From positions 1,419,501-1,483,500 of the forward strand of contig NZ_CP016757.1 in assembly GCF_001701045.1 (NCBI RefSeq): a stretch of DNA of 64,000 bases, in the 5' to 3' direction. This stretch comes from Cloacibacillus porcorum (GTDB lineage: Bacteria; Synergistota; Synergistia; Synergistales; Synergistaceae). This document shows positions 48,946 to 64,000 of the stretch, one piece after another. Below the pieces are notes generated by a model, which made no database searches, was not told the DNA's origin, and was given only the letters and a program-made list of their open reading frames with translations. Numbering within the stretch: the stretch's first letter is position 1; each line of letters starts with the position of its first letter. Made by a program: the position numbers and the translations under genes.

Positions 48946-49479
48946 TTAAAAGTTGACCGGCATGGGGAAGAACCATATCGACCATATATTGCCGATGAAG
49001 TGGAAAAGCGCCGGAGGGAAGAGGTTTTTGTAGCGGTATTTGAGCCATCCCATGATCAGCCCCGGGAAAAATGTGCAGAGGGATATCCAGTAGGGAGCGA
49101 CGATCAGGTGGATCGGAGCGAACACCAGATTGGTTATCACGATAGCCGCAAATGGGTGGAAATGCCGCTCCAAAACGGGCTGAAGCCAGCCGCGGAAAAA
49201 TGTCTCCTCTATTATCGCAGCGGTGAGTCCCGAAGCGCCCATGTTCAGCACGGTCCAGAGGCCGCGTTTACGCGGCAGCGCCTCCCAGGGCCAGTTCATC
49301 GCGACGACTGTGAGCGCCAGCAATATAAATGCAGACACGGCAAGTGTCTGCATAAAATCTTTCGCGCGGAACTCCCAGCGTAAGCCATACTCGTCGGGGT
49401 CCTCTTTTCTGTACCAGCACCATCCGTATGGCCAGTAGAGCAGGAATACTCCCGCGCAGAAGGATATGAACGTACTCAT
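48946..49479 (-). CDS. CPBP family intramembrane metalloprotease
   Basis: This 177-residue membrane protein has four to five helices. The family signature EExxxR is IEETFFRGWLQ near residue 91, followed by FAPIHLI and FHFIGNIWSIW, giving the Glu/His set proposed for catalysis. Members include CAAX prenyl proteases and bacteriocin self-immunity proteins. It lies 10 bases after the Fur-family gene and is probably co-transcribed. No clear ribosome site is seen, so translation may be coupled. Confidence 0.85.
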   Translation of the reverse strand: MSTFISFCAGVFLLYWPYGWCWYRKEDPDEYGLRWEFRAKDFMQTLAVSAFILLALTVVAMNWPWEALPRKRGLWTVLNMGASGLTAAIIEETFFRGWLQPVLERHFHPFAAIVITNLVFAPIHLIVAPYWISLCTFFPGLIMGWLKYRYKNLFPPALFHFIGNIWSIWFFPMPVNF

Positions 49480-49489
49480 GAATGAAAAA

Positions 49490-49915
49490 TTATATCTTCA
49501 GGCAATCGGTGCATAGTCCGTAGAAAAATATTTCCGTGCGTTCAATCTGCGCGATATTTTCACGTACCGATGAGGCCGACTTAAATATTTCGTCTTCGTC
49601 CACCGGAATGTCGAAGAGCTTACCACATTTGCGGCAGAGAAAGTGTCCGTGCGTCGTAGTTGTCGGGTCAAAATATACCCTCTTATCGTCGATGCTGAGT
49701 ATTTTTATGAGTCCGGCATCCGCGAGAAGCTGCGCGGTGCTGTAAAGCGTGGCGACGGACATCGTAGAATATTCGGCAGAGAGCTCACGGTAGAGAGTGT
49801 CGGCAGAGGGATGGTCGGTGCGGCCCTCCAACTGCTGTAAGATCGCGATACGCTGTGCCGTTATCTTGGCGCCTCTCTCCCTAAGAACTGCTATTCCATC
49901 GTCTACGGTCCACAT
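49490..49915 (-). CDS. Fur/PerR family transcriptional regulator
   Basis: The product has 141 residues, with a winged helix domain (ITAQRIAILQQLEG...VATLYSTAQLLADAGLI), then the metal-sensing and dimer domain with HGHFLCRKCGKLFDI and a second Cys pair CTDC near the C terminus. The structural Cys4 zinc site favours Fur, PerR or Zur; which metal or peroxide it senses cannot be decided. GGAGGA abuts an ATG at 49924 too closely, so the Met three codons on (49915) is the better start. A/T-rich ATTATTATAAAT-like sequences upstream (about 49965-49985) could be its operator. Confidence 0.9.
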   Translation of the reverse strand: MWTVDDGIAVLRERGAKITAQRIAILQQLEGRTDHPSADTLYRELSAEYSTMSVATLYSTAQLLADAGLIKILSIDDKRVYFDPTTTTHGHFLCRKCGKLFDIPVDEDEIFKSASSVRENIAQIERTEIFFYGLCTDCLKI

Positions 49916-50031
49916 TTTATCCATTCCTCCAAAAATTGTATTTTTAAATCATTTCAATTTCATTTCAATTATTATAAATCATAACTATTGATTTGTGTAC
50001 AGCAAATTGCTCTTGTATGAATATTTTCATC

Positions 50032-50059: not shown

Positions 50060-50094
50060 CCACGCGGATTGTGTATTTTGTACGATGTAAAACT

Positions 50095-50270
50095 AAATAA
50101 TTGATTTCGTGGTCTTAGGGAATCCGGTGAAAAGCCGGAACGGCCCATGCCACTGTAATCGGGACGAAACCGCATTTACGCCATTGCTCGGAGAGTACGT
50201 TGCTGGGTGAAAAGGCGCGGGAGTAGAGTGAACGAGAGTTGGGAGACCTGCCGCGAAGGTCAGCAATGGC
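50095..50270 (+). ncRNA. cobalamin riboswitch (plus strand), orphaned
   Basis: The core shows GGGAATCCGGTGAAAAGCCG, then the B12-box-like GCCACTGTAATCGGGACGAAACC, and ends with GGGAGACCTGCC. These are conserved parts of the cobalamin riboswitch in the right order. A terminator follows at 50309. Beyond it there is only an insertion-sequence end and an opposite-strand pseudogene, so no plus-strand gene remains under its control. Confidence 0.9.
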
Positions 50271-50345: not shown

Positions 50346-50442
50346 AGGTTGATAATTTTGTTATACAGGGATCGTTATTAGCCCTAGTTGTATTGGATTT
50401 CTCACAGAAGGTCCCTATTTACAGAGTTTTCTTCACACGCCC
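50345..50442 (+). mobile_element. 98-bp right end of the IS256-family element (remnant)
   Basis: It matches 15777-15874 over 98 bp with about two to three differences and ends at the same inverted-repeat tip (CACACGCCC). The transposase and left end are absent. The minus-strand chelatase frame reads into it and stops (GRVKKTL), so this end marks the break point that truncated the gene. Confidence 0.88.
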
Positions 50443-51079
50443 CCGCTTTTCCCCCTCGATTCTAGATATATCAAAGGATATCTCTTCAAAGGGCCGCCGC
50501 TGCATGCGGTGGGGCAGTGCGAACTTAGCCGCCTCCATCACATCCGCGCGCGTAGCCTCTCTGCGTCCGTCACAGGCCGCAGCGGTCATTGCCGTCTTAA
50601 GCATGGTGATGTTGGCGCGATGGCCGTCCACCTCAAGCTCAATGCAGATATTGGCGATGCAGCGCAGTATTTCCCGCGAGTAGCGGCACTCGCGCAGGAT
50701 CGATCTCGCCCTGAGAATGCGTTCGCGTAGATCTCTCTGCCTCGGTTCATACTCCTTGAAAAAACCTTCCGGATCGTTTTCATATTTGAGACGGTTTTCC
50801 AACACCTTCATGCGCCTCTCCGTGTTGTGTTCGCCGGAGAGGGTCAATGGCGTCCGGCTTGTTTTTACTTACTGCCCGGAATTATTCCGGGATTCTGTCC
50901 TCGAAGTATACGTAGAGCTGGGCGAGTGCCCGTACGGCGGTGGACTTTGCCGTCCCTTTCTCGCCGCGTATAAGGACTCCGCCGAGAGACGGGTTGACTA
51001 CGTTGAGGATCAGAGCCTTTTTCATATCCTCCTGTCCGACGATGGCGGTAAAATAGTATTCGGCCTTTTGATTGTTCAC
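50419..51079 (-). pseudogene. decayed BchI/ChlI-type AAA+ chelatase subunit
   Basis: The N-terminal part (51079-50882, GTG start with GAGGGG) contains [17 protein letters not shown] and the Walker [13 protein letters not shown], then runs out of homology and hits a stop. The C-terminal part (50847-50419), in another frame, contains SGEHNTERRMKVLENRL, RLRERIL-type helices and LEVDGHRANITMLKTA, typical of magnesium or cobalt chelatase I subunits. About 150 residues including Walker B are missing between them. The last residues come from an IS256 end. A cobalamin riboswitch precedes it, so the intact gene was probably part of a B12-repressed tetrapyrrole or cobalt system. Confidence 0.85.
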
Positions 51080-51098
51080 AGATACCCCTCTTTCAGAT

Positions 51099-51129
51099 AA
51101 AACAAAGGGGCCTCCAAGATGGAGGCCCC
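51099..51129 (-). terminator. riboswitch-linked terminator before the chelatase pseudogene
   Basis: On the minus strand GGGGCCTCC and its complement form a 9-bp stem with a five-base loop, followed by TTTGTTTT. It sits between the riboswitch and the GTG start, as an expression platform would. Confidence 0.8.
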
Positions 51130-51215
51130 GGATTTCACAACCTACAGGGTGCGTACGCGCCGGTAACGGCGGTATTTTTCGCACGAACCACGATCCCTCC
51201 ACAAAATCGCGCTGT

Positions 51216-51370
51216 GAAACAGACGATCGGTCTCCTGACTTAAAGCTTCAGTCCTACTTCGCCGCCTTCCCGGTGTCCCGGTGGCCGATGGCGTTTCGTA
51301 GCTTTTACAGTAGTGTGAGCTGCTCCGGATTCTCACCGGATTCCCTTACTGGGCGCTTACCGTCTGTTTT
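51216..51370 (-). ncRNA. cobalamin riboswitch (minus strand)
   Basis: Read on the minus strand, GGGAATCCGGTGAGAATCCG is followed by an ACTGTAAAAGC segment, GCCATCGGCCACCGGGA, a GGGAAGGCGGCGAAGTAGGA stretch and GTCAGGAGACCGATCG. AAACAGACGG at the start pairs with CGTCTGTTT at the end as P1. This is a complete-looking cobalamin aptamer upstream of the chelatase pseudogene. Confidence 0.92.
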
Positions 51371-51542
51371 ATATCACTAACTATTTATTCTTACAGCAAG
51401 AACCGCCTTTTGTCAACAAAACCCGCGTCAGCCGAGTTCGCGTATTTTTTTGTTTTTTAATATTTCCCCGCGAATTACTATACTCTGGTGAAGAAGATTA
51501 TCTGATGACTGAGATTTGACGTTGAGATATAAAGCATGGAAG

Positions 51543-51637: not shown

Positions 51638-52951
51638 TCAGACGCGCCTTCTCAAGAAGAGCGGCATCAGTGCCAGAAGAGCTATCGCTCCCCAGTCGCC
51701 GTTACATCCGCCGCCACCGCCGCCGTCTCCCAACGGAGTGTCCGGTTCGACCGGCGTAATGGTTCCCGTCGGGCTTACCGCTGTATAAGCGGAGATATTG
51801 CCGCTGAGGGCGTTGCTTCCGAACTCGGTCCAGTTTGCACCGTCGTAGCGCCAGAGGCTGTAGCCGACGCCTGCCCAAAGATAATTTGTACTCTCGTCAT
51901 ATGCCAGTCCCAGGCGATAGCCGTAATCACCTGTGAAATCCCTCAGCAGCTTACCGATATCGCCTTTACTCAGCTTTTCCAGCGTCGTCTCATAGATGCG
52001 GATGCTGTATCCGGCGGTGTAGTCCTCGCCCGAAGTCCATTTGGCGGCCTGTATATATACCTTGTCTCCGACGAAGACCACGGCGTCAAACATATGCTTA
52101 AAGGTTGGGTCGACAACGTTCATCTCTCCCGCGGTTATGAGGCTGGTGACCTCCATAGTATTGAGGTCAGCCATCTCTATGCATGATTCGGGATTCCATT
52201 CGTCTCCAAACTTCTGTACACCGCCCAGCGTGGCGACGTACAACCTGCCCTCTTTCTGGGAATACGCGCCCGGTGTGAAGCCGTCGAGATTTTTGCCCTT
52301 CATCTCAACACGCGCCAGTTCGTTGAGCTCGGAGTCAAGCTTTACAAGCTGATTGAGCCGGTATGATCCCGATGTCGTGTTCCAGGGGTCGTTGCTGCCG
52401 GTAAAGATCGCGTACAAATTCCCGTTATAGGCGTTTAAGGCTTCCCCGTGTCCGTTATACTTCGAATCATTATGGTAATATTCGTATTTTTTATCCTGTT
52501 TATAGACGTCATTGGCTGTACTTACGCGGCTGACGATAGGGATATCGTAGGCTGTGGCGTAGAGGCTGCCTCCCATCTCCACCATCATTCTGGTATTATG
52601 GAGAGTGGTGGTAGCCTCGCGCAGCGGGGCTTTCCATGACGACTGCTGTGTCCACTGAGATTGTTCCCCGGGATTGTAAATGGAGATAACGTCGGTACCG
52701 TTTCCCGTGTAGAGCGTTATCGCGATCCTGAAATTACCGTCGGCGTTTTTAAAAGGGTATATCCCCTGTCCCGAGTTACCCCCCATGTTGCTGACGAGCG
52801 GTGAAACGGGATCTCCGGCGCCCTGGATGATTCCCAGCGCCGTATTGGAGTATCCATTGTCCTGCCTGGTAAAGAGCAGATCCGCCTGTGCCGGCAGCGA
52901 TGCGGCCAACAGGCTGAGGGCGAGCATCAGCATGATAAATTTTCTGCGCAT
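51638..52951 (-). CDS. propeller-like Synergist-CTERM surface protein
   Basis: The product has 437 residues. A signal peptide (FIMLMLALSLLAASLPAQA) starts the protein, and GGGGGCNGDWG plus a hydrophobic helix and RRR end it, the Synergist-CTERM signal. Between them several strands recur with the pattern G-x-LY/VY (NGNLYAIF, EGRLYVATL, GDKVYIQAA, TNYLWAGV), suggesting a beta-propeller, which is an inference. The ATG at 52951 has GAGGAGG nine bases before it. It lies 45 bases after the TonB receptor gene and is probably co-transcribed, so it may help bind the receptor's ligand at the cell surface. Confidence 0.75.
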   Translation of the reverse strand: MRRKFIMLMLALSLLAASLPAQADLLFTRQDNGYSNTALGIIQGAGDPVSPLVSNMGGNSGQGIYPFKNADGNFRIAITLYTGNGTDVISIYNPGEQSQWTQQSSWKAPLREATTTLHNTRMMVEMGGSLYATAYDIPIVSRVSTANDVYKQDKKYEYYHNDSKYNGHGEALNAYNGNLYAIFTGSNDPWNTTSGSYRLNQLVKLDSELNELARVEMKGKNLDGFTPGAYSQKEGRLYVATLGGVQKFGDEWNPESCIEMADLNTMEVTSLITAGEMNVVDPTFKHMFDAVVFVGDKVYIQAAKWTSGEDYTAGYSIRIYETTLEKLSKGDIGKLLRDFTGDYGYRLGLAYDESTNYLWAGVGYSLWRYDGANWTEFGSNALSGNISAYTAVSPTGTITPVEPDTPLGDGGGGGGCNGDWGAIALLALMPLFLRRRV

Positions 52952-52996
52952 GTGTATTTCCTCCTCTTCTTTCTTTATATAATGCAATTTGTCGTT

Positions 52997-54967
52997 CTAG
53001 AAGGTCCAGATCAGAGAGGCGTAAAAGGCCCTTCCCTGTATCGGATACCACAGAGTCCTCTCCGGCCCGTTGCCGGTGGCGAAGAGCATTACGTCGGGTC
53101 CGGCGTTGAAAACGTCGTCCACGCCGAAGACCAGCTTGAGGTCGTCGCGTAACTGCCAGCGCATGCCGAGCCCGAAGGTCGTCAGATTATCCCAGCCGAC
53201 CTCGCCCTGCATGTCGTAATAATTCTTCCCGATGTGGTGCAGCTCCGCGAAGATAGTACCCCTGTCGTCCTTCAATATCTTCCGGCTCACCCGCAGCAGC
53301 CCCTCCCACTCGGGACGGTTCGGCAGCGGGTCGTCATACATATATCCCGAAGTCTTATTCTTGGGATCCATCCATGTAGCGGAGATATAGAGGTCCCACT
53401 TGTCACGTTTCACCGTCGCTTCAAGTTCAACTCCCGATATCTCCGCGTTTCCGATATTCACATATTGTGCGTATCTTGGATTGACCATCAGATAATCTAT
53501 GAGGTTGTTCGATTTGCGGTAAAAATAGGTGAGCTCCGCTTTGACGCTGGCCTTGGAGAGCTCTCCCTCCCAGGCAATCCCCACGTCGTACTGCGTGCCG
53601 TCTTCCCACTTCAGCCCCTCGTTGGGGATGATGAAAGCGCCGTCGCCGTAAAGCTCGTAAAGATTGGGGGCGCGGTTATAGGTGCCGCCCGTGACCTTTG
53701 CCGTCCAGCCTTGGCCAAATTTCTTGGTCAGCGCCGCCCCCCAGGAAAACTCCGTGACCCCTTCGGCGGTGTTCCAGCGTATGATAGGCGTGAGCCAGAG
53801 ATCCCCGGTCCGGTTGAGGCTGATCGTGTCCTGTATCTGCCCGTTCCATGAATTGCGCGTATGACGCTCCCGTCCGCCGAAATTCTTCACGATATCTCCC
53901 GTCGTATGGAGCTCCTCGTTATAATAATTCCAGAGAAATTCGACGAGATGATTCTCCCCGAGTGGCAGCGAGCCGTCGACGGCGGCGCCGAAGCGCTTTG
54001 TCTCATACCGGTTATGCTGCTCGCCCCAGCCGCCGATCGTGTCTGAGGGATCGTCATAATCCTTAGTCTGATGCAAATACTCGAGCCTCAGGCCATAATC
54101 GAGATCGCCCATCCTGCCGCGTCGCGTCACGACCGTATTCCACTGGTCCGTCACCTGCGTCGCCCCGCGCACGCTGTCCGGCTTGTCCGCCCCTGGGGCA
54201 GAATAGGGCAGCTCGCGGTCGTTGCGCTTCCAGCCGCCCTCCACCTGCCACCTCTCACTGTTCCACTTGAGCAGGACGTTTGAATTCTTATAGCCGTTAT
54301 TCTGCCTCTCCGCCTTATAATCGTCGTCTGGAGTATAGGGAGTATTATTATCATTCCAATACTCGAAATCGCCGTCCGTGCGGTCGAAATTGACGGAGGC
54401 CATCAGCGCGCCCTCTCCCAGCGGCGTATTATAAGAGAGCCCGCCCGTGAGGCGTCCGAAAGAGCCGAGGCCGGCGGTCACCGAGCCGCCGGCCCTCTCG
54501 GGTTTTTGGGTGATAATATTGATGACGCCGCCCATAGAGGCGCCGCCGAAGCGCGCGGGGATATAACCGCGGTAGACCTCGATCCTCTCGACATTCTCCA
54601 CGGGAATAGTGGAAAGATCGACGGCGGCCTCGCTGCCGAGATTCATCAGCACGCCGTCGACATAGACGGAGACCTGTGAAGAGCTGCTGCCGCGCACGGA
54701 GGCGGTAGTATAGGCGCCGCGCCCCTTCGTTTCGATAATATGCAGCCCCGGCACCTGCTTGAGCAGTTCTGGGAGAGTCTTCTGCTCTCCCTTCATCTCC
54801 TGCGGTTTGATGACGGTGACGCTGCCGGGTGAAAGGAGCAGCTTATCCTCCACTTCGGCGTCGGTGGTGATCTTCTCCTCCGGCAGCCCTACGGTGTCAT
54901 CCGCCGCGGCCGCCACTCCCGCGCCAAGGCACAGACACAGCGCTGCGATAAAAAGGTATTTTTTCAT
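52997..54967 (-). CDS. TonB-dependent outer-membrane receptor
   Basis: The product has 656 residues. A signal peptide is followed by a plug domain (LPELLKQVPGLHI, GSSSSQVSVYVDGVLMN, VERIEVYRGYIPARFGGASMGGVINIIT) and a 22-strand-type barrel ending in the outer-membrane Phe (SLIWTF). It imports a scarce ligand with TonB energy. Similar length and plug are found in BtuB-like cobalamin, catecholate siderophore and heme receptors; the nearby cobalamin riboswitches hint at B12 but none directly precedes this gene. TonB, ExbB and ExbD are not in the window. Confidence 0.93.
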   Translation of the reverse strand: MKKYLFIAALCLCLGAGVAAAADDTVGLPEEKITTDAEVEDKLLLSPGSVTVIKPQEMKGEQKTLPELLKQVPGLHIIETKGRGAYTTASVRGSSSSQVSVYVDGVLMNLGSEAAVDLSTIPVENVERIEVYRGYIPARFGGASMGGVINIITQKPERAGGSVTAGLGSFGRLTGGLSYNTPLGEGALMASVNFDRTDGDFEYWNDNNTPYTPDDDYKAERQNNGYKNSNVLLKWNSERWQVEGGWKRNDRELPYSAPGADKPDSVRGATQVTDQWNTVVTRRGRMGDLDYGLRLEYLHQTKDYDDPSDTIGGWGEQHNRYETKRFGAAVDGSLPLGENHLVEFLWNYYNEELHTTGDIVKNFGGRERHTRNSWNGQIQDTISLNRTGDLWLTPIIRWNTAEGVTEFSWGAALTKKFGQGWTAKVTGGTYNRAPNLYELYGDGAFIIPNEGLKWEDGTQYDVGIAWEGELSKASVKAELTYFYRKSNNLIDYLMVNPRYAQYVNIGNAEISGVELEATVKRDKWDLYISATWMDPKNKTSGYMYDDPLPNRPEWEGLLRVSRKILKDDRGTIFAELHHIGKNYYDMQGEVGWDNLTTFGLGMRWQLRDDLKLVFGVDDVFNAGPDVMLFATGNGPERTLWYPIQGRAFYASLIWTF

Positions 54968-54994
54968 CTCTTCAGCCTTTCAGTCATAAGGCCG

Positions 54995-55020
54995 CCTCCG
55001 GCTCAAAAACAAGCCGGAGG
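54995..55020 (-). terminator. hairpin after the last GLUG gene
   Basis: CCTCCGGCT and its exact complement form a 9-bp stem with an eight-base A-rich loop, about 20 bases past the stop at 55040. It separates the GLUG block from the TonB receptor gene, whose promoter must be close by or which depends on read-through. Confidence 0.6.
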
Positions 55021-55039
55021 GGCTATGATTTGCTCCAAA

Positions 55040-57487
55040 TTATTTTAGGGATTTTTTCTTTAAGGTACGCGAAACAACTGGAATTGCCGCCAGCAGGATA
55101 ATTCCCGCGTATCCGGCGCCGTTACAGCCGCCGCCGGATGAGCCGCCAGTAGGGGCAGGAGAGCCTTCCGCAAGCTTGACGACGGCAATGGGATCGATGA
55201 TGCTGCGGTCCGCCGGATCCATATCGAAATTGCTGTTGTCCTGGATATAGAGCACCAGTTTGTATGGCTGCGCCGGGTCTATCTTATCCGTCGGCGCCAT
55301 CATCTTATCGTCCATAGTCTGCAGCGTGAAGCGCTTGTTGCCAAAGGCATCCTGATCCTCTGCGTAGGCAAAGAATTCGCCGGTACCATCGGGGCGTGTC
55401 TTGACGAGCGCGACCTTCTGCGGGGTGTCGGCCATGAGACGGTCTCCGCTGATAATTATGCCGGCGGCCGCGATCTTGCCCGCAGCGCTTACCTCAACAG
55501 AGAATAACGGCAGAGGAATTATCGCCGACACTTTAAGATTGTCTCTATCCTCCGCGTCTTTAACCGCCGCGCTCACCTTTTCGCTATTAAGATAAAGGAT
55601 TCCGTTTGAACCGACCCTGAAGGCAGAGACGTCGATACCGACTGCGGCGGCGATATCTTCTATGACCGCGCTCGTTGCTCCTATGGGTTTCACTGGGTCG
55701 ACATAATTGGGAACCGCATTGCCGGTTGGAATAAATCCAGATATCTCAACATCTGTCGCAGGAGCTCCGACTACCGTTATTGAGTCTGAAAATTTACCGT
55801 CAGCGGTCGTTGCCGTAAAGGTGTAGGCGTAATCCTTTTTATGCCCGGAGCGGAGGAGTATCGAAAGATTACCGTTTCCGGCATTTTTCATGATGACATC
55901 TTCCGACGATGCAGCTCCGCTGACAGCGGAGAGCGTCCAGACGACATCGCCGGCATCGGCGTCCGAAGGTCTTACAGAGGCTCCCAGAACCCGGGTCTCG
56001 CCCTCTTTCCACGCAGTGTTTGAACCGTAGGCCGTAATTCCCTCCACGGGAATCGCACTTGACGCGATTTTAAGAACGCCTTGAACAGAGGCCGCTGTCT
56101 CAAAGTTGGAGATATAGGGATCGGACGAGCCCGTGTGGCCCAGCAGACCTGAAACGTCGGCGGATATGGAGGCAAAGATATTCTTCGTCTCAGCGTGATC
56201 CTTTGCCTTCACGGTGAGCGTCGGCGTACCTTCTCCCTTTACAACCTCAAGCTTTGACGTATCAACGCTCCACGTATATTTGAGAGACGAGGCGTCGGCC
56301 GTAAGCGGGTATGCGGTGATATGGATATCGCGCGTTTCGCCGCTTTTGATGGTTTTAAGGTCATTGGTATCCATAATGACTGCCGTCACCGGAAGCTTGG
56401 CTGGGTCGGTGATGCGTCCTGTTATTCCGCTGCCGCCCCACGCGTATTCAGGCTGTTCCCTGTTTTGATAGAGCCAGTAGCAATTCTGGTAACCAAAACC
56501 AAAATTGCCAACTACGCCTCCGACATTTCCGGGAGAGGCAGAAACCTTTTGGGCGGCAGAGACGTTATCAGCGGTTATGATACTATTAAAACCACCGAAG
56601 ATGCCGCCCGCGTCCATCCCGGCGACTATTGAGGGGCTAAGCGCTACGTTATTCCGCACTTTTCCTTTGTACCAATGAGAGAATCCCACAATGCCGCCCG
56701 CGTACGAGAAAGATGCCGGCGTGGAAAAGACGCTTCCCAAAACTACGTTGTTACGGATAATGGCATAAGGGTTTTCGCTCGTCATATCATCGCCTTGCGG
56801 TCCGCCGTTGAGTCCCGCGATGCCGCCCGCGTAGCCCCTCTTGGAGCTCGTGGCCCGCACTTCGACGTCGGTGACGCAGTTCTCGATGAGTCCGTCCGCC
56901 CAGCCGGCAATGCCGCCCACGCCTTCGCACTCGGAGGCATTGACCTTTCCTTTCACGACAAGGTTTCTTATCTTACCGTCGATGGAAATATAGCCGAAAA
57001 GGCCTGCCGCCTCTGTCTGTTTTGAGTTATACAGCGGAACGTTTTCGCATGTTTCTATCTTCAGTCCGGAGATCGTATGGCCGCCGCCGTTGAAGCTGCC
57101 GTCGAAGCCCTCGTATTCTCTGGTCTGTGTCCATCCTGATGTTGTTGTATAGCTCAGATACCACCCTATAGGCGCCCATTCCCTGTCTTCAAGGTTTATG
57201 TCGCGTGTCAGGAGAATGTGTTTGTCCTTAAGGCTCACCTTTGTGACCCCCCATTGGCCGGAGGGAACATTGACCATCTTCGCTAGGCCAGCCAGCTCTT
57301 CGGGAGTGGAGATCAGAAATGGATTATCCACGCTCCCGCGCTCATTCTTATAATCGTCATACCATGAAGTATCGGGCGTCCACGAATCCGACGCGGCCAT
57401 CACCGAACCTGCGGACAGAATAATGATGAGCAGGGCCACCGCCGCGAGCGCGAAATGACGGCTGATTTTTTTAAGGGTATTATTCAT
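55040..57487 (-). CDS. GLUG-repeat Synergist-CTERM protein, type A, copy 2
   Basis: The product has 815 residues. After a signal peptide comes DSWTPDTSWYDDY and FLISTPEELAGLAKM, then GLUG-type repeats at about 130-330 (VGGIAGWADGLIENC, AGGIAGLNGG, AGGIVGFSHW, AGGIFGGFNS). A long region with Ig-like traits follows (VPVEGITAYG...VVWTLSA), then a conserved 100-residue block and GCNGAG plus a hydrophobic helix and KKK (Synergist-CTERM). Surface adhesion or matrix binding is inferred from the domain type. The ATG overlaps the end of the preceding type B gene by eight bases, with GGAGGC as ribosome site. The 3' part is about 97% identical in DNA to that of copy 1. Confidence 0.88.
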   Translation of the reverse strand: MNNTLKKISRHFALAAVALLIIILSAGSVMAASDSWTPDTSWYDDYKNERGSVDNPFLISTPEELAGLAKMVNVPSGQWGVTKVSLKDKHILLTRDINLEDREWAPIGWYLSYTTTSGWTQTREYEGFDGSFNGGGHTISGLKIETCENVPLYNSKQTEAAGLFGYISIDGKIRNLVVKGKVNASECEGVGGIAGWADGLIENCVTDVEVRATSSKRGYAGGIAGLNGGPQGDDMTSENPYAIIRNNVVLGSVFSTPASFSYAGGIVGFSHWYKGKVRNNVALSPSIVAGMDAGGIFGGFNSIITADNVSAAQKVSASPGNVGGVVGNFGFGYQNCYWLYQNREQPEYAWGGSGITGRITDPAKLPVTAVIMDTNDLKTIKSGETRDIHITAYPLTADASSLKYTWSVDTSKLEVVKGEGTPTLTVKAKDHAETKNIFASISADVSGLLGHTGSSDPYISNFETAASVQGVLKIASSAIPVEGITAYGSNTAWKEGETRVLGASVRPSDADAGDVVWTLSAVSGAASSEDVIMKNAGNGNLSILLRSGHKKDYAYTFTATTADGKFSDSITVVGAPATDVEISGFIPTGNAVPNYVDPVKPIGATSAVIEDIAAAVGIDVSAFRVGSNGILYLNSEKVSAAVKDAEDRDNLKVSAIIPLPLFSVEVSAAGKIAAAGIIISGDRLMADTPQKVALVKTRPDGTGEFFAYAEDQDAFGNKRFTLQTMDDKMMAPTDKIDPAQPYKLVLYIQDNSNFDMDPADRSIIDPIAVVKLAEGSPAPTGGSSGGGCNGAGYAGIILLAAIPVVSRTLKKKSLK
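55174..55405 (-). repeat. 232-bp near-identical patch shared by the two type A genes, copy 2
   Basis: It aligns without gaps to 59693-59924 with about eight differences. The flanking parts of the two genes are far more diverged. It encodes the block before the sorting signal (KTRPDGTGEFFAYAEDQDAF and onward). Confidence 0.88.
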
Positions 57488-59492
57488 GATTATTGCCTCC
57501 GTTCAAGGTGATCCGTTTTTTTAAAACGGCGGCAAGCGGAACAGCCACAAAGAGCGAAAGCCAGCCCCAGGCGCCTCCGTTGCAGCCGCCGGAACTGTGC
57601 GAACCGCCGTTAGGGGCTTTTTCCTTCGCCGCGTTGATGATGACGTCAGCTGAAAGTTCCGACCCGTCCACCGTATAGGCGGAAAGCAGATACTGAGCCC
57701 CCGGCACGTATTTGAGCAGGGTCGCCTTCAACTGTTTCGAACTGCCGACGTGCGTTAATTCTATGTCGTCGACCGCCGCCGCGTCGCCCGAGGTTACCTT
57801 AAGGTCCCAGCGTAAAACGGGATATGACACCTCTTCCTCTGGCAAGAGAGAGGCCGTTATGACCTTTGAATCGCCGGCGTCCGCCAGCGTGACAGACTCC
57901 GCGTCAAGCGCGAGAGAGGTGAGCATCACCTTGGTGACAGCGGCGTATGTCTTTGCCGTCCATGAATTTTCACCGAGAAAACCATTTGCCGAGGCCAGAA
58001 TGTCTGTGGTACCCGCTTTGACGCCCCTGACCAGCGCGCTTTCTCTGACAGCGAAAACTATCGAAGCGACGGCGCTATCGGCCGTTCCCCATGACCAGGC
58101 GAGGCCATTCGTTTTTCCGGCGACAGACGGGAAACACATCACCCTCTGAGAATAGCTTTTGTTCTCCAAAATCCGTACCGTAGGCTGAGATAGGAGCGAA
58201 ACGGGCATTAGCTCGGCGGCGTCGGCTACTTTCGTTACGCTGTAATTAAGCCTGTTATCGGGAATTACGGTTTGGGCCACATAGTCGTTTAAGGGAAGTC
58301 CCTCGCCCGCCAGCCACTCACATTGATACATCTTAGTATTGACAACATCCGGGATGAATCCGACTAAACTTCCCGCGTGGCCTGAGGCGGCGTCGATTTT
58401 CATTGTTGACGAACAGTGCTCTATATTGAGATCCATGTTATTATCTTTGACACCGACAATGCCGCCGGCGTTCACAAAGGCGTCTCCAGCCGCCGACGAC
58501 CTGATCTTTATGCTTCCCTGCGCCGAACATCCCACTATTGCCTGCCATTGAACGACTCCGGCTATCCCGCCGGCGTTATTCATATATTTGGCGCTGTTGA
58601 TGTTCACCGTGGGATACTGTCCGCCGATGACGTCAATGTCGCATGAGACGGCGCAATTCGTGAGAGCGGCCCCCGTGCCGGTGGTGCCGGCAATGCCCCC
58701 CGCGCTGACTGGGCCCACGGCCTCGGCGTTCTTTATCGAGCCGCTAAAAAAGCAGTTTTCTATCGGTTGGGCGGCATTTCCACAGAGGCCGCCCAAGCAG
58801 GTAACGGTAGTGTTTTTGTCGTTTCCCGAGTTATCGGTGGTTATATACGCCTCGGCGCTGCAGTTGCGAAGCACCATGGCGCCATATCCGGCTATCGCAC
58901 CGACATCTCCGTCGCCGTACCCCTTGACGCTGCCTTTAAAGGAACAGTTTTCTATCGAGCTGGTCGCGGCTGTTCCCTGTGCCCAGCCGGCGATGCCGCC
59001 GACGCTGTAACCCAGATAGTCTCTTCCCGCGATGGTTTCCGGAGCGACGGAGACATTTCCCGCGACGTTGAGGTTCCTGATATTTAAGGTGAGACCACCG
59101 TTGAGTTTGCCGAAGAATCCGATATAATCTCCGCCCGGCTCTCCGCATTTGACGGCGCCGAGGCCGCCTACGGTGTATCCCTGACCGTCAAACAATCCGG
59201 AGAATGTTTTTCCCGTTATTCCGATACCCGTCCACACCTTGCCGCTCAAGTCGATATCAGCGCCAATGCGCACGGTTTTGCCGGCAAAATTTTGCGTCCC
59301 GTCGTTGACGAGTTTCGCCAGTCCCGCGAGCTCCTCCGCCCTATTAATTGTAAAACTGACGTCGGCGGAGTTTGCCTCGTACCAACTGACGTCGGCGGAC
59401 TCTATCCAATCGGCCGCCCGCGCGCTGCCGGACGACAATAGAGATACAGCCGCTATCAGCGGTAAAATAAACAAAAAAACTTTTCTTGACAT
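57480..59492 (-). CDS. GLUG-repeat Synergist-CTERM protein, type B, copy 2
   Basis: The product has 670 residues. It has a signal peptide ending SGSARAADW, then SADVSWYEANSADVSFTINR and RAEELAGLAKLVNDGT. GLUG-type repeats at about 100-390 include VGGIAGWAQG, VGAIAGYGAM, LGGLCGNAAQ and AGGIAGTTGT. A bacterial Ig-like middle and SSGGCNGG plus a hydrophobic helix close the protein. It is the diverged twin of the 645-residue protein at 62034. GAGGAG precedes the ATG. Translation is coupled to the following type A gene by overlap. Surface location is well supported; the ligand is unknown. Confidence 0.88.
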   Translation of the reverse strand: MSRKVFLFILPLIAAVSLLSSGSARAADWIESADVSWYEANSADVSFTINRAEELAGLAKLVNDGTQNFAGKTVRIGADIDLSGKVWTGIGITGKTFSGLFDGQGYTVGGLGAVKCGEPGGDYIGFFGKLNGGLTLNIRNLNVAGNVSVAPETIAGRDYLGYSVGGIAGWAQGTAATSSIENCSFKGSVKGYGDGDVGAIAGYGAMVLRNCSAEAYITTDNSGNDKNTTVTCLGGLCGNAAQPIENCFFSGSIKNAEAVGPVSAGGIAGTTGTGAALTNCAVSCDIDVIGGQYPTVNINSAKYMNNAGGIAGVVQWQAIVGCSAQGSIKIRSSAAGDAFVNAGGIVGVKDNNMDLNIEHCSSTMKIDAASGHAGSLVGFIPDVVNTKMYQCEWLAGEGLPLNDYVAQTVIPDNRLNYSVTKVADAAELMPVSLLSQPTVRILENKSYSQRVMCFPSVAGKTNGLAWSWGTADSAVASIVFAVRESALVRGVKAGTTDILASANGFLGENSWTAKTYAAVTKVMLTSLALDAESVTLADAGDSKVITASLLPEEEVSYPVLRWDLKVTSGDAAAVDDIELTHVGSSKQLKATLLKYVPGAQYLLSAYTVDGSELSADVIINAAKEKAPNGGSHSSGGCNGGAWGWLSLFVAVPLAAVLKKRITLNGGNNHE
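59299..59441 (-). repeat. 143-bp near-identical patch shared by the two type B genes, copy 2
   Basis: It aligns without gaps to 63781-63923 with four differences. It encodes the end of the signal peptide and the start of the mature protein (SGSARAADWIESADVSWYE and onward). Confidence 0.88.
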
Positions 59493-59564
59493 TTTTCATT
59501 CTCCTCTTTTTATTTACTATGGAGCGGCGCCGTCTATATCCGAACCGGCACCGGCTCCGATAGA

Positions 59565-62021
59565 TTACTGCCTGAACTTCTTTTTTGGGGCACGCATAAA
59601 CAGGGGGATCACAGCCAACAGCATTATTCCGACAGCGCCAGCGTTGCATCCGCCGGACGAGCCTCCGGAGGGCGCCGGTGTCTCTTTCGCGAGCTTGACG
59701 ACGGCAATGGGATCGATGATGCTGCGGTCCTCCGGATCCATATCGAAATTGCTGTTGTCCTGGATATAGAGCACCAGTTTGTATGGCTGCGCCGGGTCTA
59801 TCTTATCCGTCGGCGCCATCGTCTTATCGTCCATAGTCTGCAACGTGAAGCGCTTGTTGCCGAAGGCATCCTGATCCTCCGCGTAGGCGAAGAATTCTCC
59901 GGTACCGTCGGGGCGTGTCTTGACAAGCTTGACCTCCTGCGGGGTGTAGGCTAGGAGCGCGTCTCCGCTGATGACGAGCGCCGTCACCGCTAGTTTGCCG
60001 GCCTGTGAGGTGGTCATCCTGAGAATCGGCAGCGGCTTGATCTGTGTCACCTCCACCTTGTCCAGCGAGGCGGCGTAGTCGACCGCGGCGCCGAGCACGG
60101 CGGAGTTCAGGTATACGATGCCCTTTGAATTGGTCCTGAAAACGGAGATGTCGACACCGCAGGCCGCCGCAATATCAACGAGCATATCCGAGGTCGCGCC
60201 GACGGCCTTAAGAGCTTCCGCGTAGGTCGGAACGACGGCTCCGAGGGGGATGACGCCGGAGATGTCCACATCCGTGACCGGCGCACCCGTAAGTGTGATG
60301 GAATCTTTGAGGCCGCCGTCCTTCGCCGTTACCGTAAAGGTGTATCCGTAGGCCTTCTCATGCCCCTTTCTCAGCGTGACTTCAAGCGTCCCGTCGTCTT
60401 TCTGGTTCAGTATCACGTCATCGGAGAGCGCTTCGCCGGAGAGCGCCGTAAGCGCCCATGTTACGCTCGTGTCGTCCGCGTCGGAGGGAACGACCGCGAC
60501 GCCCAGGCTTCTCGTTTCGCCCTCCTTAATATCCGAGGCGTCTCCGTAAGCAATCACGGATTCCACGGGGATACTTGCCGAGGCTACCTTTAAGGTCGCC
60601 TCCAGCGTCACCGAGGTGTCAAAGTTCGATATATACCTGTCCTTCGGCTGTCCGGAACCAGCGTCCGTATAGCCGAGAAGGCCTTTTACATCCGCGGAGA
60701 GCGCGGCATAGGATATATCTTCCGCCGCGGCGAGAGCTTTGACCCTGATTGTGTTCGTGCCCTGTCCACTTACTATCTGAAGTTTCGTCCCGTCCACGTG
60801 CCACGTATATTTGAGCCCGGAGGCATCGGCCTGCGTCGGGTAGGAGACGATATGTATCTCGCGTTCGTCGCCCGGCTTTATCGTGCCAAAGTCAGCGGCG
60901 TCGAATATCGCAGCGGCCACGGGCAGCTTGTTTTCATCCGTCACTCTGCCGTACTCATAATGCCCCATGGACGCGTTGCCGTTCAGGGGCTGATCATCCG
61001 TCATCTTCAGCCAGTAGCAGTTCTGGTAGTCGTATCCGTAGGCGCCGACGATGCCGGAGGCGTCAGCGGCTTTTACCTTCGCGGCCACGGAGACCGAGTT
61101 TGCCGTAATGTTGCTGTTGAAGCCGCCGAAAATACCGCCAGCGTCCATGCTGGCGATTATCGACTTGCAAAGAGCGACGCAGTTGCGCACCTCGCCGTGG
61201 TACCAGCTTGAGAAGCCGACGATACCGCCAGCGTAGGAGTAGCTGATTGGCGTGGAGCTTACATTACCGAAGACGACACAGTTGCGGATCATCGCCTTGA
61301 TCCCGTCTGTCACGGGGCCGGAGCCGTCGCCCTTCGGATTGCCGTTGAGTCCGGCGATGCCTCCGGCGTAGCCCCTCTTGGAGCTGGTGGCGAAGACGGA
61401 GACATCGGTGGCGCAGTTCTCGATGACGCCGTCGGCCCAGCCGGCTATACCGCCTACGTCCTCGCATTTTGAGGCGTTGACGCTTCCCTTGACTGCCAGG
61501 TTCTTTACAGTGCCCTCGTTGTCAAGGTAACCGAATAGCCCCGCCGTTTCGCTCTGAACGCTGTTATGCACGTAGAGATTTTCACAGGTTACGATCGAAA
61601 GGCCAGATATCGTATGGCCGCCGCCGTCGAAGGTGCCGTCAAAACCCTTGTAGTTCGGTATCTTGTTAAAGCCGCTCGTAACGATTTTATAGTCGATCTT
61701 CCACCCTATCGGCGCCCATTCCTTGCTCTGAAGGTCGATGTTGCGCGTAAGCAGTATATATTTACCCTTAAACAATACGCTGGGATTTAGCCAGTCGCCG
61801 ACCTTGTTGGTCAGCTGCGCGAGCCCGGCCAGCTCCTCGGGCGTCGAGATGAGGAAGGGTTTTTCCTTTGTGCCGCGCGTCGTCTTGTAGTCGTCATACC
61901 ACTTAGTGTCGACCGTCCACGAGTCGGCGAACGACATCGCGGCGAATATGAAGATCAGCAGGAACGCCGCCAGCGGCGCGGCGATTGCGCGTCTCATCGC
62001 GGAGAATGTTTTTTCGTTCAT
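59565..62021 (-). CDS. GLUG-repeat Synergist-CTERM protein, type A, copy 1
   Basis: The product has 818 residues and the same plan as the protein at 55040: signal peptide, SWTVDTKWYDDY, FLISTPEELAGLAQL, four main GLUG-type repeats (VGGIAGWADGVIENC and onward), Ig-like middle, conserved pre-sorting block, SSGGCNAG, helix and KKK. The ATG at 62021 has AGGAGGT seven bases upstream. That site overlaps the stop of the preceding type B gene, so the pair is translationally coupled. A GTG at 62030 lies within the ribosome site and is rejected as start. Confidence 0.88.
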   Translation of the reverse strand: MNEKTFSAMRRAIAAPLAAFLLIFIFAAMSFADSWTVDTKWYDDYKTTRGTKEKPFLISTPEELAGLAQLTNKVGDWLNPSVLFKGKYILLTRNIDLQSKEWAPIGWKIDYKIVTSGFNKIPNYKGFDGTFDGGGHTISGLSIVTCENLYVHNSVQSETAGLFGYLDNEGTVKNLAVKGSVNASKCEDVGGIAGWADGVIENCATDVSVFATSSKRGYAGGIAGLNGNPKGDGSGPVTDGIKAMIRNCVVFGNVSSTPISYSYAGGIVGFSSWYHGEVRNCVALCKSIIASMDAGGIFGGFNSNITANSVSVAAKVKAADASGIVGAYGYDYQNCYWLKMTDDQPLNGNASMGHYEYGRVTDENKLPVAAAIFDAADFGTIKPGDEREIHIVSYPTQADASGLKYTWHVDGTKLQIVSGQGTNTIRVKALAAAEDISYAALSADVKGLLGYTDAGSGQPKDRYISNFDTSVTLEATLKVASASIPVESVIAYGDASDIKEGETRSLGVAVVPSDADDTSVTWALTALSGEALSDDVILNQKDDGTLEVTLRKGHEKAYGYTFTVTAKDGGLKDSITLTGAPVTDVDISGVIPLGAVVPTYAEALKAVGATSDMLVDIAAACGVDISVFRTNSKGIVYLNSAVLGAAVDYAASLDKVEVTQIKPLPILRMTTSQAGKLAVTALVISGDALLAYTPQEVKLVKTRPDGTGEFFAYAEDQDAFGNKRFTLQTMDDKTMAPTDKIDPAQPYKLVLYIQDNSNFDMDPEDRSIIDPIAVVKLAKETPAPSGGSSGGCNAGAVGIMLLAVIPLFMRAPKKKFRQ
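59693..59924 (-). repeat. 232-bp near-identical patch shared by the two type A genes, copy 1
   Basis: It is the partner of 55174-55405, with a constant offset of 4,519 bp. Confidence 0.88.
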
Positions 62022-62033
62022 CTTTCGCACCTC

Positions 62034-63971
62034 CTATCCGCGGCGGCTGTGCCTGCCGCGCGTCGTCATAAACGCCGCCGGCAGCGCCAGCAGAAGCGCG
62101 AGGGATCCCACCGCCGAGCAGCCGCCCGAGCTTTCCGCCGCCGGGTCCGCCTTGGCCGTGACGGTCAAATAGGCCGATAGGTCTGTTCCGTCAACGGCTT
62201 TCGACGTAAGCTTATACTGAGCTCCTTCAACGAAATTCACGAGTGTTACCTTTACCCTGCGCGTAGATTCGATGTAAGTGATCTCAAGGTCGTCGTTCGT
62301 GGCAGCGTCGCCGGAGACCACTTCGTAGCTCCATTTCAGTTCCGGATATGATGCGCCGCTTTCGGGAGTGATGGAGGCCGTCACCTCTTCGCTCGCGCCG
62401 GCGCTGTTGAGGATCATCTCTTCAGCGCTGAGCACAAGCTTTCGCAGCGAAGAGAGCACGCTCAGCACCACCGCCTTCAGCGACCATGAATTTCCGCCGG
62501 GAAAGCCGGAGGCGCTGAGATAAAGTTCAGCAGTGCCGCTTTTTCTGCCCCTTATCACGGCCGTATTGCCGGAGGAGGAGGCCACCTTGAGGGCGGATTT
62601 ATTCGAGGTCCCCCAGGAAAACCCTAGTTCGCTCATGTTGCCGCAGCTGGTTGGGAAGACGAGAGCCTTTACTGTTGTGGGAATGTTTTCCGTAATTTTG
62701 TAAATAGGCGGCAATATCGCGGAGGCCGCGCGGAGGTTTTTCGCTTCGGTCACCTTGAGAGCTTGTTCGTCGGTGACGCCGTCGATATCGCCCACAGCCT
62801 TTTCCGCCTGGCCTACGCCGCCGAGCCATTCGCACCCCGTGAAAATGCCGATTGTTTTTCCACGCCCAACCATTCCTCCGGTCATCGCTGATGACGCTGA
62901 GATGGAAATGGCGGACGAACAGTATTCAAATGATATTATATCGGCATAACCCGCTACGCCGCCGATAAAAAGGCTCTTGCCCTCTGGAGTGGACGCCGTT
63001 ATCGTGCCCTCTCCGGTGCAGGCGGTGATCGTGTTCCAGCCCCATAGGTTTCCCGCAACTCCGCCAATCTGGGCGTTTTGCGCGGTCTTTATATTCATAT
63101 CACAGAAGCTCGCGCAGTTTGTCATCGAGCCGACGGTATGTATCAGCCCCGCCACGCCGCCGACATATGACGTACCGCTGGCCGAGGGAGCTGTGAGGAC
63201 AATCGAACCGGTAAATCCGCAGTTTTCGACGCCGCGCCCGGCTTCCCCCACTACACCTCCGACATACGCGTTGCTGGTTAGGGTAATGTCAGCTGACACA
63301 TAGCAATTAAGGAATCCACACCAGCTTATACTGGCTATCCCTCCGACATACCCTGGGGCGTCGGACGAGATCTTTCCGGTAAAGGAGCAGTTTTCAATCG
63401 TTTTGTTGATTGTTCCATTGGCGGTACTCTGCGTAGCGCCCAGCAGTCCGCCGATGTAGAAGTCAACGGCTCCGGCGTCTTTATCTGCCTGGGAGGGGCG
63501 TATATTTCCCTCGATATGCAGGTTTTTAAAGGCGGGATAGACAGCTTCGCAATAGCCAAAAAGACCAATATAACCAATATATGGAGTACCATATACAATT
63601 TCTGGAGATTTAATCTCGCAGAGTCCCTTCACCGTGTGTCCGCATCCGTCGAAAGTACCGCGAAAACAATGCAGAAGCTGGAAGCCTGTTCTGGTGCTGT
63701 GCCCGATGGCCGTCCACACCCTGCCGGAGAGGTCTATATCTTTCCCTAGCTTTACCGTCTTGCCCTCGAACATCTCCGTTCCGTCGTTGACGAGCTTCGC
63801 CAGTCCCGCGAGCTCCTCCGCCCTATTGATTGTAAAACTGACGTCGGCGGAGTTTGTCTCGTACCAACTGACGTCGGCGGACTCTATCCAATCGGCCGCC
63901 CGCGCGCTGCCGGACGATAATAGAAATGCTGCCATAAGCGCCAGACAGGTCATTATCTTTCTTTTACGCAT
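62034..63971 (-). CDS. GLUG-repeat Synergist-CTERM protein, type B, copy 1
   Basis: The product has 645 residues. Its signal peptide and mature N terminus are nearly identical to those of the protein at 57480. The GLUG region differs in number and sequence of repeats (IGGLLGATQ, VGGVVGEAGRGVENC, VGGVAGLIHT, IGGVAGNLWG, IGGVAGYADI, TGGMVGRGKT). It ends SSGGCSAVG, hydrophobic helix and basic tail. GGAAGAGGG precedes the ATG. It is the first gene of the visible block; only 29 bases of upstream sequence are in the window, so its promoter is not seen. Confidence 0.88.
   Translation of the reverse strand: MRKRKIMTCLALMAAFLLSSGSARAADWIESADVSWYETNSADVSFTINRAEELAGLAKLVNDGTEMFEGKTVKLGKDIDLSGRVWTAIGHSTRTGFQLLHCFRGTFDGCGHTVKGLCEIKSPEIVYGTPYIGYIGLFGYCEAVYPAFKNLHIEGNIRPSQADKDAGAVDFYIGGLLGATQSTANGTINKTIENCSFTGKISSDAPGYVGGIASISWCGFLNCYVSADITLTSNAYVGGVVGEAGRGVENCGFTGSIVLTAPSASGTSYVGGVAGLIHTVGSMTNCASFCDMNIKTAQNAQIGGVAGNLWGWNTITACTGEGTITASTPEGKSLFIGGVAGYADIISFEYCSSAISISASSAMTGGMVGRGKTIGIFTGCEWLGGVGQAEKAVGDIDGVTDEQALKVTEAKNLRAASAILPPIYKITENIPTTVKALVFPTSCGNMSELGFSWGTSNKSALKVASSSGNTAVIRGRKSGTAELYLSASGFPGGNSWSLKAVVLSVLSSLRKLVLSAEEMILNSAGASEEVTASITPESGASYPELKWSYEVVSGDAATNDDLEITYIESTRRVKVTLVNFVEGAQYKLTSKAVDGTDLSAYLTVTAKADPAAESSGGCSAVGSLALLLALPAAFMTTRGRHSRRG
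63781..63923 (-). repeat. 143-bp near-identical patch shared by the two type B genes, copy 1
   Basis: It is the partner of 59299-59441, with a constant offset of 4,482 bp. Confidence 0.88.
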
Positions 63972-64000
63972 CGTTATTCCCTCTTCCTCGTATTACCGTC

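Follow-up and report, generated by a model that had tools for sequence, protein, structure and literature searches.

A cobalamin-riboswitch operon of paired GLUG surface proteins in Cloacibacillus porcorum and its probable link to cobamide acquisition

The GLUG gene array and its leader

The window that we analysed is a stretch of 64,000 nucleotides from the genome of Cloacibacillus porcorum (G000:C1:1419501-1483500). This member of the Synergistaceae has a genome of 3.585 Mb in a single contig, labelled G000 here, and its relatives are labelled G001, G014, G020, G021 and G027. Four consecutive minus-strand genes at 55040-63971 encode surface proteins with the GLUG motif. They alternate between two architectures, A and B, an arrangement that was noticed in a first-pass annotation and is borne out by the list of open reading frames and by Pfam. 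These genes are part of an operon on one strand, in which a cobalamin riboswitch is followed by A1, B1, A2, B2, a BtuB-like receptor and a BtuG-like propeller (PROP). The features are as follows, in window coordinates:

64286-64526, minus strand: cobalamin riboswitch (Rfam RF00174), genome positions 1483786-1484026 (L011:786-1026)
63972-64000, minus strand: 3' end of the leader that carries the operon riboswitch
62034-63971, minus strand: A1, GLUG surface protein of 645 aa with a signal peptide and a C-terminal GGC, hydrophobic stretch and basic tail
59565-62021, minus strand (listed with a GTG start at 62030): B1, GLUG surface protein of about 818 aa with Ig-like domains
59493-59564, minus strand: intercistronic hairpin between the cassettes (-25.3 kcal/mol, z -3.4)
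57480-59492, minus strand: A2, GLUG surface protein of 670 aa with Synerg-CTERM
55040-57487, minus strand: B2, 815 aa, built as B1, with an 8-base overlap with A2
54968-55039, minus strand: intercistronic hairpin ahead of the receptor gene (-29.9 kcal/mol, z -3.65)
52997-54967, minus strand: BtuB-like TonB-dependent outer-membrane receptor, 656 aa (TIGR01779)
51638-52987, minus strand: PROP, BtuG-like beta-propeller of 449 aa with a Synerg-CTERM anchor (31.9 bits)
48946-49479, minus strand: MrtS, intramembrane protease near the operon (NF040589, 236.6 bits against a cut-off of 130)

All four A and B proteins resemble other GLUG-motif surface proteins in scoring above the Pfam cut-off of 20.5 bits (PF07581; A1 31.8, B1 28.3, A2 37.8, B2 21.9). 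Only GLUG and Ig-type matches were returned for them by the Pfam scan, in which DUF4465 was absent. A and B are also related to each other as distant paralogues that align over about 500 columns (hhalign probability 100 at 27% identity). B is longer by a C-terminal part of about 190 aa, which B1 carries as an extra domain together with Synerg-CTERM. The annotation had described the system as built on Synerg-CTERM anchors. The tag is recognised in B1 (26.4 bits) and A2 (32.1 bits) at the cut-off of 22.5 bits (TIGR04564), B2 falls below it (19.3 bits), and NCBIfam does not report the tag for A1, although the tails of B2 and A1 have the same layout.

Within each pair the two genes are translationally coupled, as had been claimed. 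At the junction of A1 and B1, ATAGGAGGTGCGAAAGATG, the A1 stop codon lies within the B1 Shine-Dalgarno sequence, and B1 therefore probably starts at the ATG at 62021 and not at the listed GTG. The junction of A2 and B2, where the 8 shared bases lie, reads ATGAATAA.

Structure prediction is of limited help for B1. The AF2 model is poor (pLDDT 51, built from three sequences), therefore no ligand site can be proposed. Its Foldseek matches are of the Ig and fibronectin types and do little more than hint at Ig-like domains, and a comparison of the B1 sequence with PDB chains gave nothing useful. A W-Y motif that opens the GLUG domain was considered as a ligand motif and dropped, as it is also present in GLUG proteins from outside B12 loci (L101, L102).

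The riboswitch, which matches RF00174 at 69.6 bits (gathering threshold 31.5), begins some 315 nt ahead of A1, just beyond the edge of the window. Behind it come a terminator-type hairpin (-22.1 kcal/mol, z -5.9) and then UCUUUUUG. The stem is formed by GGGAGAGAG and CTCTCTCCC, with a U-rich tract behind it. The loop exceeds the maximum length of a consensus terminator scan, which therefore missed this hairpin. The leaders of the relatives share this layout, and the leader looks like a terminator-type riboswitch that silences the operon when cobalamin is abundant. There is no third cassette upstream, where the annotation had suggested looking beyond position 64000; the riboswitch leader is followed there by an opposite-strand tRNA and housekeeping genes.

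Some smaller elements accompany these genes. In three genomes the stretch that separates the riboswitch terminator from the first A gene holds an ORF of 18-19 codons (18 in G000) with a Shine-Dalgarno sequence of its own, a possible leader peptide, at about 530-595 of L011, 12408-12470 of L087 and 9165-9230 of L086, in each case on the minus strand. The hairpin between the cassettes is a possible processing or attenuation element. L087 has a hairpin of similar stability at the position equivalent to that ahead of the receptor gene (-30.6 kcal/mol, z -3.5).

A-B pairs in relatives and the history of the cassettes

How widespread is the pairing of A with B? Full-length A occurs in seven copies in four of 188 Synergistota genomes. 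Among the 53 genomes of the family that were searched, full-length B also has seven copies, in the same four genomes. The survey of Synergistota for adjacent pairs that the annotation had proposed gave a uniform answer: every full-length A (7/7) directly precedes a full-length B. The 8-base overlap recurs in G001 and G021, while the genes are separated by 12 and 18 bases in G027:C53 and in the second pair of G001. At G027:C37 a single frame of 1444 aa encodes an A-B fusion that retains the C-terminal tag of A in its interior. Tandem pairs are not found in every genome with A-B. The transcription units are:

G000: riboswitch, A1, B1, A2, B2, receptor, propeller
G027:C53: riboswitch, A, B, receptor, propeller
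G021: riboswitch, receptor, propeller, A, B
G001, unit 1: riboswitch, A', B'
G001, unit 2: riboswitch, A, B, propeller
G027:C37: riboswitch, A-B fusion

An RF00174 cobalamin riboswitch is found in all six units and, by Rfam, in none of 11 control loci around other GLUG genes (L100-L103, L117-L123). Fisher's test gives p of about 8e-5 if the loci are assumed to be independent, a value that is descriptive, since the loci are related to one another and the controls include short contigs. Two of the units, A'B' of G001 and the fusion at G027:C37, consist of A and B only behind their own riboswitch, therefore the receptor alone cannot explain the regulation by B12.

The GLUG motif is common among adhesin-like proteins of the Synergistaceae that have no link with B12. 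The A-B subfamily differs from the other GLUG loci examined in being paired, tandemly duplicated and located behind cobalamin riboswitches. A and B do have an adhesin-like build, with GLUG and Ig-like domains and a surface anchor, many of their GLUG relatives lie outside B12 loci, and other receptor-propeller loci manage without A-B. It is conceivable on these grounds, although unlikely, that A and B are adhesins or receptors under B12 control which keep a source of B12 close to the cell, for instance mucin, other cells or B12-carrier glycoproteins of the host. They would then have no contact with free corrinoids, and the propeller and receptor would do the uptake. This idea comes with no pointer to any particular partner, and in G014 a propeller-GLUG fusion of 836 aa behind a receptor (L090) places a GLUG domain on the capture protein itself.

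The phylogenies of A and B were compared, as had been suggested. The two protein trees (seven sequences each) have the same topology and agree at every split, with at least 97% support for all four, and in a mirror-tree comparison r is 0.92, the best of 5040 pairings. This indicates that A and B moved as a unit, and the view that the pair was duplicated as a unit is upheld. The idea that A and B work together has fared less evenly. Adjacency, the in-frame fusion and the matching trees favour a unit, but a free-standing two-component system is ruled out, as the operon runs on into the receptor and propeller.

The duplication itself is old. Between the cassettes the proteins are 42% (A1/A2) and 60% (B1/B2) identical, far above chance, with A diverging faster than B in this comparison. 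A1B1 goes with the pair at G027:C53 (79%), and A2B2 with those in G001 (85%) and G021 (60 and 71%). Each C. porcorum cassette is thus closer to a pair from another genome, and the split between the cassettes predates the genera compared. A recent duplication is rejected on the basis of both the low identity and these closer relatives elsewhere. The leader in G000 and the leader ahead of the A2B2-type pair in G001 are 92% identical over 378 nt, a likeness in sequence which suggests that G001 may have lost a cassette.

Only two short tracts are recent, and these are gene-conversion tracts that overlie the old divergence. The first is at the 5' end of A1/A2 (A1 nt 39-195; 157 nt, 95% DNA identity) and the second is near the 3' end of B1/B2 (about 325 nt, 91% DNA identity); outside them the cassettes are about 50-60% identical. 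In one 120-nt bin within its tract, B1 shares 97% identity with B2 but 78% with its own orthologue. Such recent exchange between the cassettes, and the faster divergence of A, would also be expected of surface antigens that diversify in response to pressure on the receptor from immunity or phages and sit on a B12-controlled transcript by chance. We regard this as very improbable: tandem copies also gain conversion tracts passively, and a chance association sits poorly with two separate units in which A-B stands alone behind its own cobalamin riboswitch.

The receptor, the propeller and other cobalamin loci

The top NCBIfam model for the receptor is TonB-B12 (TIGR01779, E 3.2e-47), with 161 bits against an equivalog cut-off of 599.7, and models of siderophore and haem receptors also match. 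Among solved structures its best sequence matches are to E. coli BtuB (E 1e-20). The AF2 model of PROP is a beta-propeller (pLDDT 78). With VIA-align its top nine matches are all BtuG1, BtuG2 or BtuG3 (Z 26.3-27.8; 299-307 residues aligned, rmsd 2.8-3.1, identity 12-16%), although other propellers match nearly as well (Z 25.9 and lower). BtuG proteins also take ranks 1 and 2 with Foldseek. PROP belongs to no Pfam family, and neither phmmer nor an 11-sequence profile run against PDB chains gave a BtuG sequence match. The fold alone is not decisive for the likeness to BtuG, but fold and gene position together are.

Could the operon import some other ligand, such as an incomplete corrinoid, haem or a metal chelate, with the riboswitch merely reporting cobamide sufficiency? 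The receptor score (161 against a cut-off of some 600 bits for the BtuB equivalog) and the siderophore and haem matches leave room for this. So do CbiK and the cobalamin-synthesis-type genes in the genome, with which import of B12 may be non-essential. We consider it the least probable of the alternatives, as the best matches among solved structures are BtuB for the receptor and BtuG for the propeller.

Cobalamin riboswitches also head other genes of G000. One precedes BtuF- and BtuD-type genes, ExbB, an ExbD-like ORF and TonB, a second heads CbiK and its neighbours, which look like cobalamin-synthesis genes, and a further one heads methylmalonyl-CoA mutase. A second operon, with the order riboswitch, receptor, propeller, surface protein, GLUG protein, surface protein, is present in G000, G020 and G027. 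In G000 (L092, G000:C1:3001001-3021000) it encodes a receptor, an extended propeller, two proteins with Synerg-CTERM and a GLUG protein of 504 aa that lacks this tag, and it adjoins the riboswitch-controlled methylmalonyl-CoA mutase. The second receptor-propeller riboswitch operon of G021 ends with a beta-helix Synerg-CTERM protein of 1191 aa (L089 12009-15584, minus strand), which has a C-terminal domain in common with B.

Receptor-propeller pairs without A-B are more widespread (e.g. L096-L098). Most of these lie behind a cobalamin riboswitch where the flanks permitted a check, the Rfam scan of some distant propeller loci having covered 1.5-kb flanks only. L104-L107 cover the contig stretches already represented by L093, L099, L096 and L097, and each stretch was counted once. 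A-B is rare (4/188 genomes) and such pairs do without it, therefore it is not essential for uptake. In Sporomusa a distant propeller homologue lies beside a receptor, with several cobalamin riboswitches; a search of three genomes of this genus for B homologues gave none. As many as five of these riboswitches, some in tandem, occur there within 20 kb (L108, L109, L110), and the propeller ORFs as called have no obvious signal peptide.

Further features of the window lie outside the operon. At 50419-51202 (minus strand), directly behind its own cobalamin riboswitch (51208-51379), there are two ORFs of a ChlI/ChlD-type 'putative cobaltochelatase' that match only positions 1-49 and 199-318 of TIGR02442, an apparent pseudogene. 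A third cobalamin riboswitch at 50093-50269 (plus strand, 78.9 bits) points into the antisense of this remnant with no convincing gene behind it, and is probably orphaned. The MrtS gene is directly behind that of a Fur/PerR-type regulator (48946-49924, minus strand). Finally, a protein of 1885 aa with repeated Big_2 Ig-like domains is encoded at 4025-9682 (minus strand).

A proposed role in cobamide capture

Several lines of evidence lead us to regard A-B as a cobamide-uptake accessory. These are the riboswitch-headed operon, the riboswitches in 6/6 units and 0/11 controls, the fusions and the matching trees; the BtuB matches of the receptor and the BtuG structural matches of the propeller; and the BtuF/BtuD-type, ExbB, ExbD and TonB genes behind another cobalamin riboswitch of G000. 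We conclude that A and B are probably cobamide-acquisition components of a riboswitch-controlled uptake operon. That A or B binds corrinoids directly is a possibility to which we give somewhat less than even weight. Slightly more tentative still is the full proposal that A and B form a heteromeric GLUG-solenoid surface receptor, which itself binds corrinoids and hands them to a BtuG-like lid that sits on a BtuB-like receptor.

The operon may work as follows. Judging from the leader, when intracellular cobalamin is low the riboswitch terminator would not be triggered and the operon would be transcribed. By analogy with myxosortase, A, B and the propeller would be exported, cut by MrtS, the predicted processor of Synerg-CTERM proteins, and anchored at the surface via their tails. 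The propeller, for which fold and gene order are observed, probably acts as a BtuG-type lid on the receptor. A-B would probably add a further layer of capture, binding corrinoids or a corrinoid carrier and passing them to the propeller and receptor, much as BtuH is proposed to do in Bacteroides. Two diverged cassettes would broaden the range or the capacity of this capture.

The closest known systems are the BtuB-BtuG(-BtuH/BtuJ) loci of Bacteroides (PMC6143338, PMC10404256, PMC8941943, PMC12751083). These share control by cobalamin riboswitches, a TonB receptor that adjoins a beta-propeller surface protein, more large surface proteins per locus, several loci per genome and a capture domain that is at times fused to the propeller. 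For example, Bacteroides BtuG1 carries a fused BtuH domain; BtuH has a proposed accessory role in capture or loading, and BtuG is the lid on BtuB (PMC10404256). The differences are the phylum, the Synerg-CTERM anchor in place of an N-terminal lipobox, a propeller that is not BtuG by sequence, and accessories of the GLUG/Ig type rather than DUF4465 or BtuH. Among further binders of B12 the best known are the DUF4465 proteins (PMC13398666). Like these and BtuH/BtuJ, A and B are extra surface proteins beside BtuB-BtuG-type genes (PMC13398666, PMC8941943), but they lack the Pfam DUF4465 domain, have GLUG repeats rather than an augmented beta-jellyroll and are made as an obligate gene pair. The tails resemble those of the MYXO-CTERM/myxosortase system (PMC11980579) in their tripartite layout and invariant cysteine, and MrtS, whose gene is close by, is a protease of the superfamily to which myxosortase belongs; here the tag and enzyme are of the Synergistota type and processing is predicted.

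Riboswitch-controlled, lipoprotein-assisted uptake of cobamides is known, and what is new are the components, the anchoring and the phylum. In the open-licence literature we found no report that ties GLUG proteins to B12 or describes such loci in Synergistota. BtuG has been reported as exclusive to Bacteroidetes (PMC6143338). A BtuG-like propeller with a BtuB-like receptor under cobalamin riboswitches is now seen in Synergistota and Sporomusa, which suggests that lid-type capture of B12 is more widespread, or arose more than once.

In summary, one subfamily of the large and unassigned GLUG surface-protein family gains a testable role, and Synerg-CTERM sorting is tied to a concrete task, the capture of a nutrient. 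If the heteromeric receptor proposed here is real, proteins that capture B12 would gain a new fold class, and Synergistota would have their own counterpart of BtuG/BtuH, held in place by a sorting tag at the C-terminus. Since gut communities are shaped by competition for B12, new capture proteins are of practical interest.
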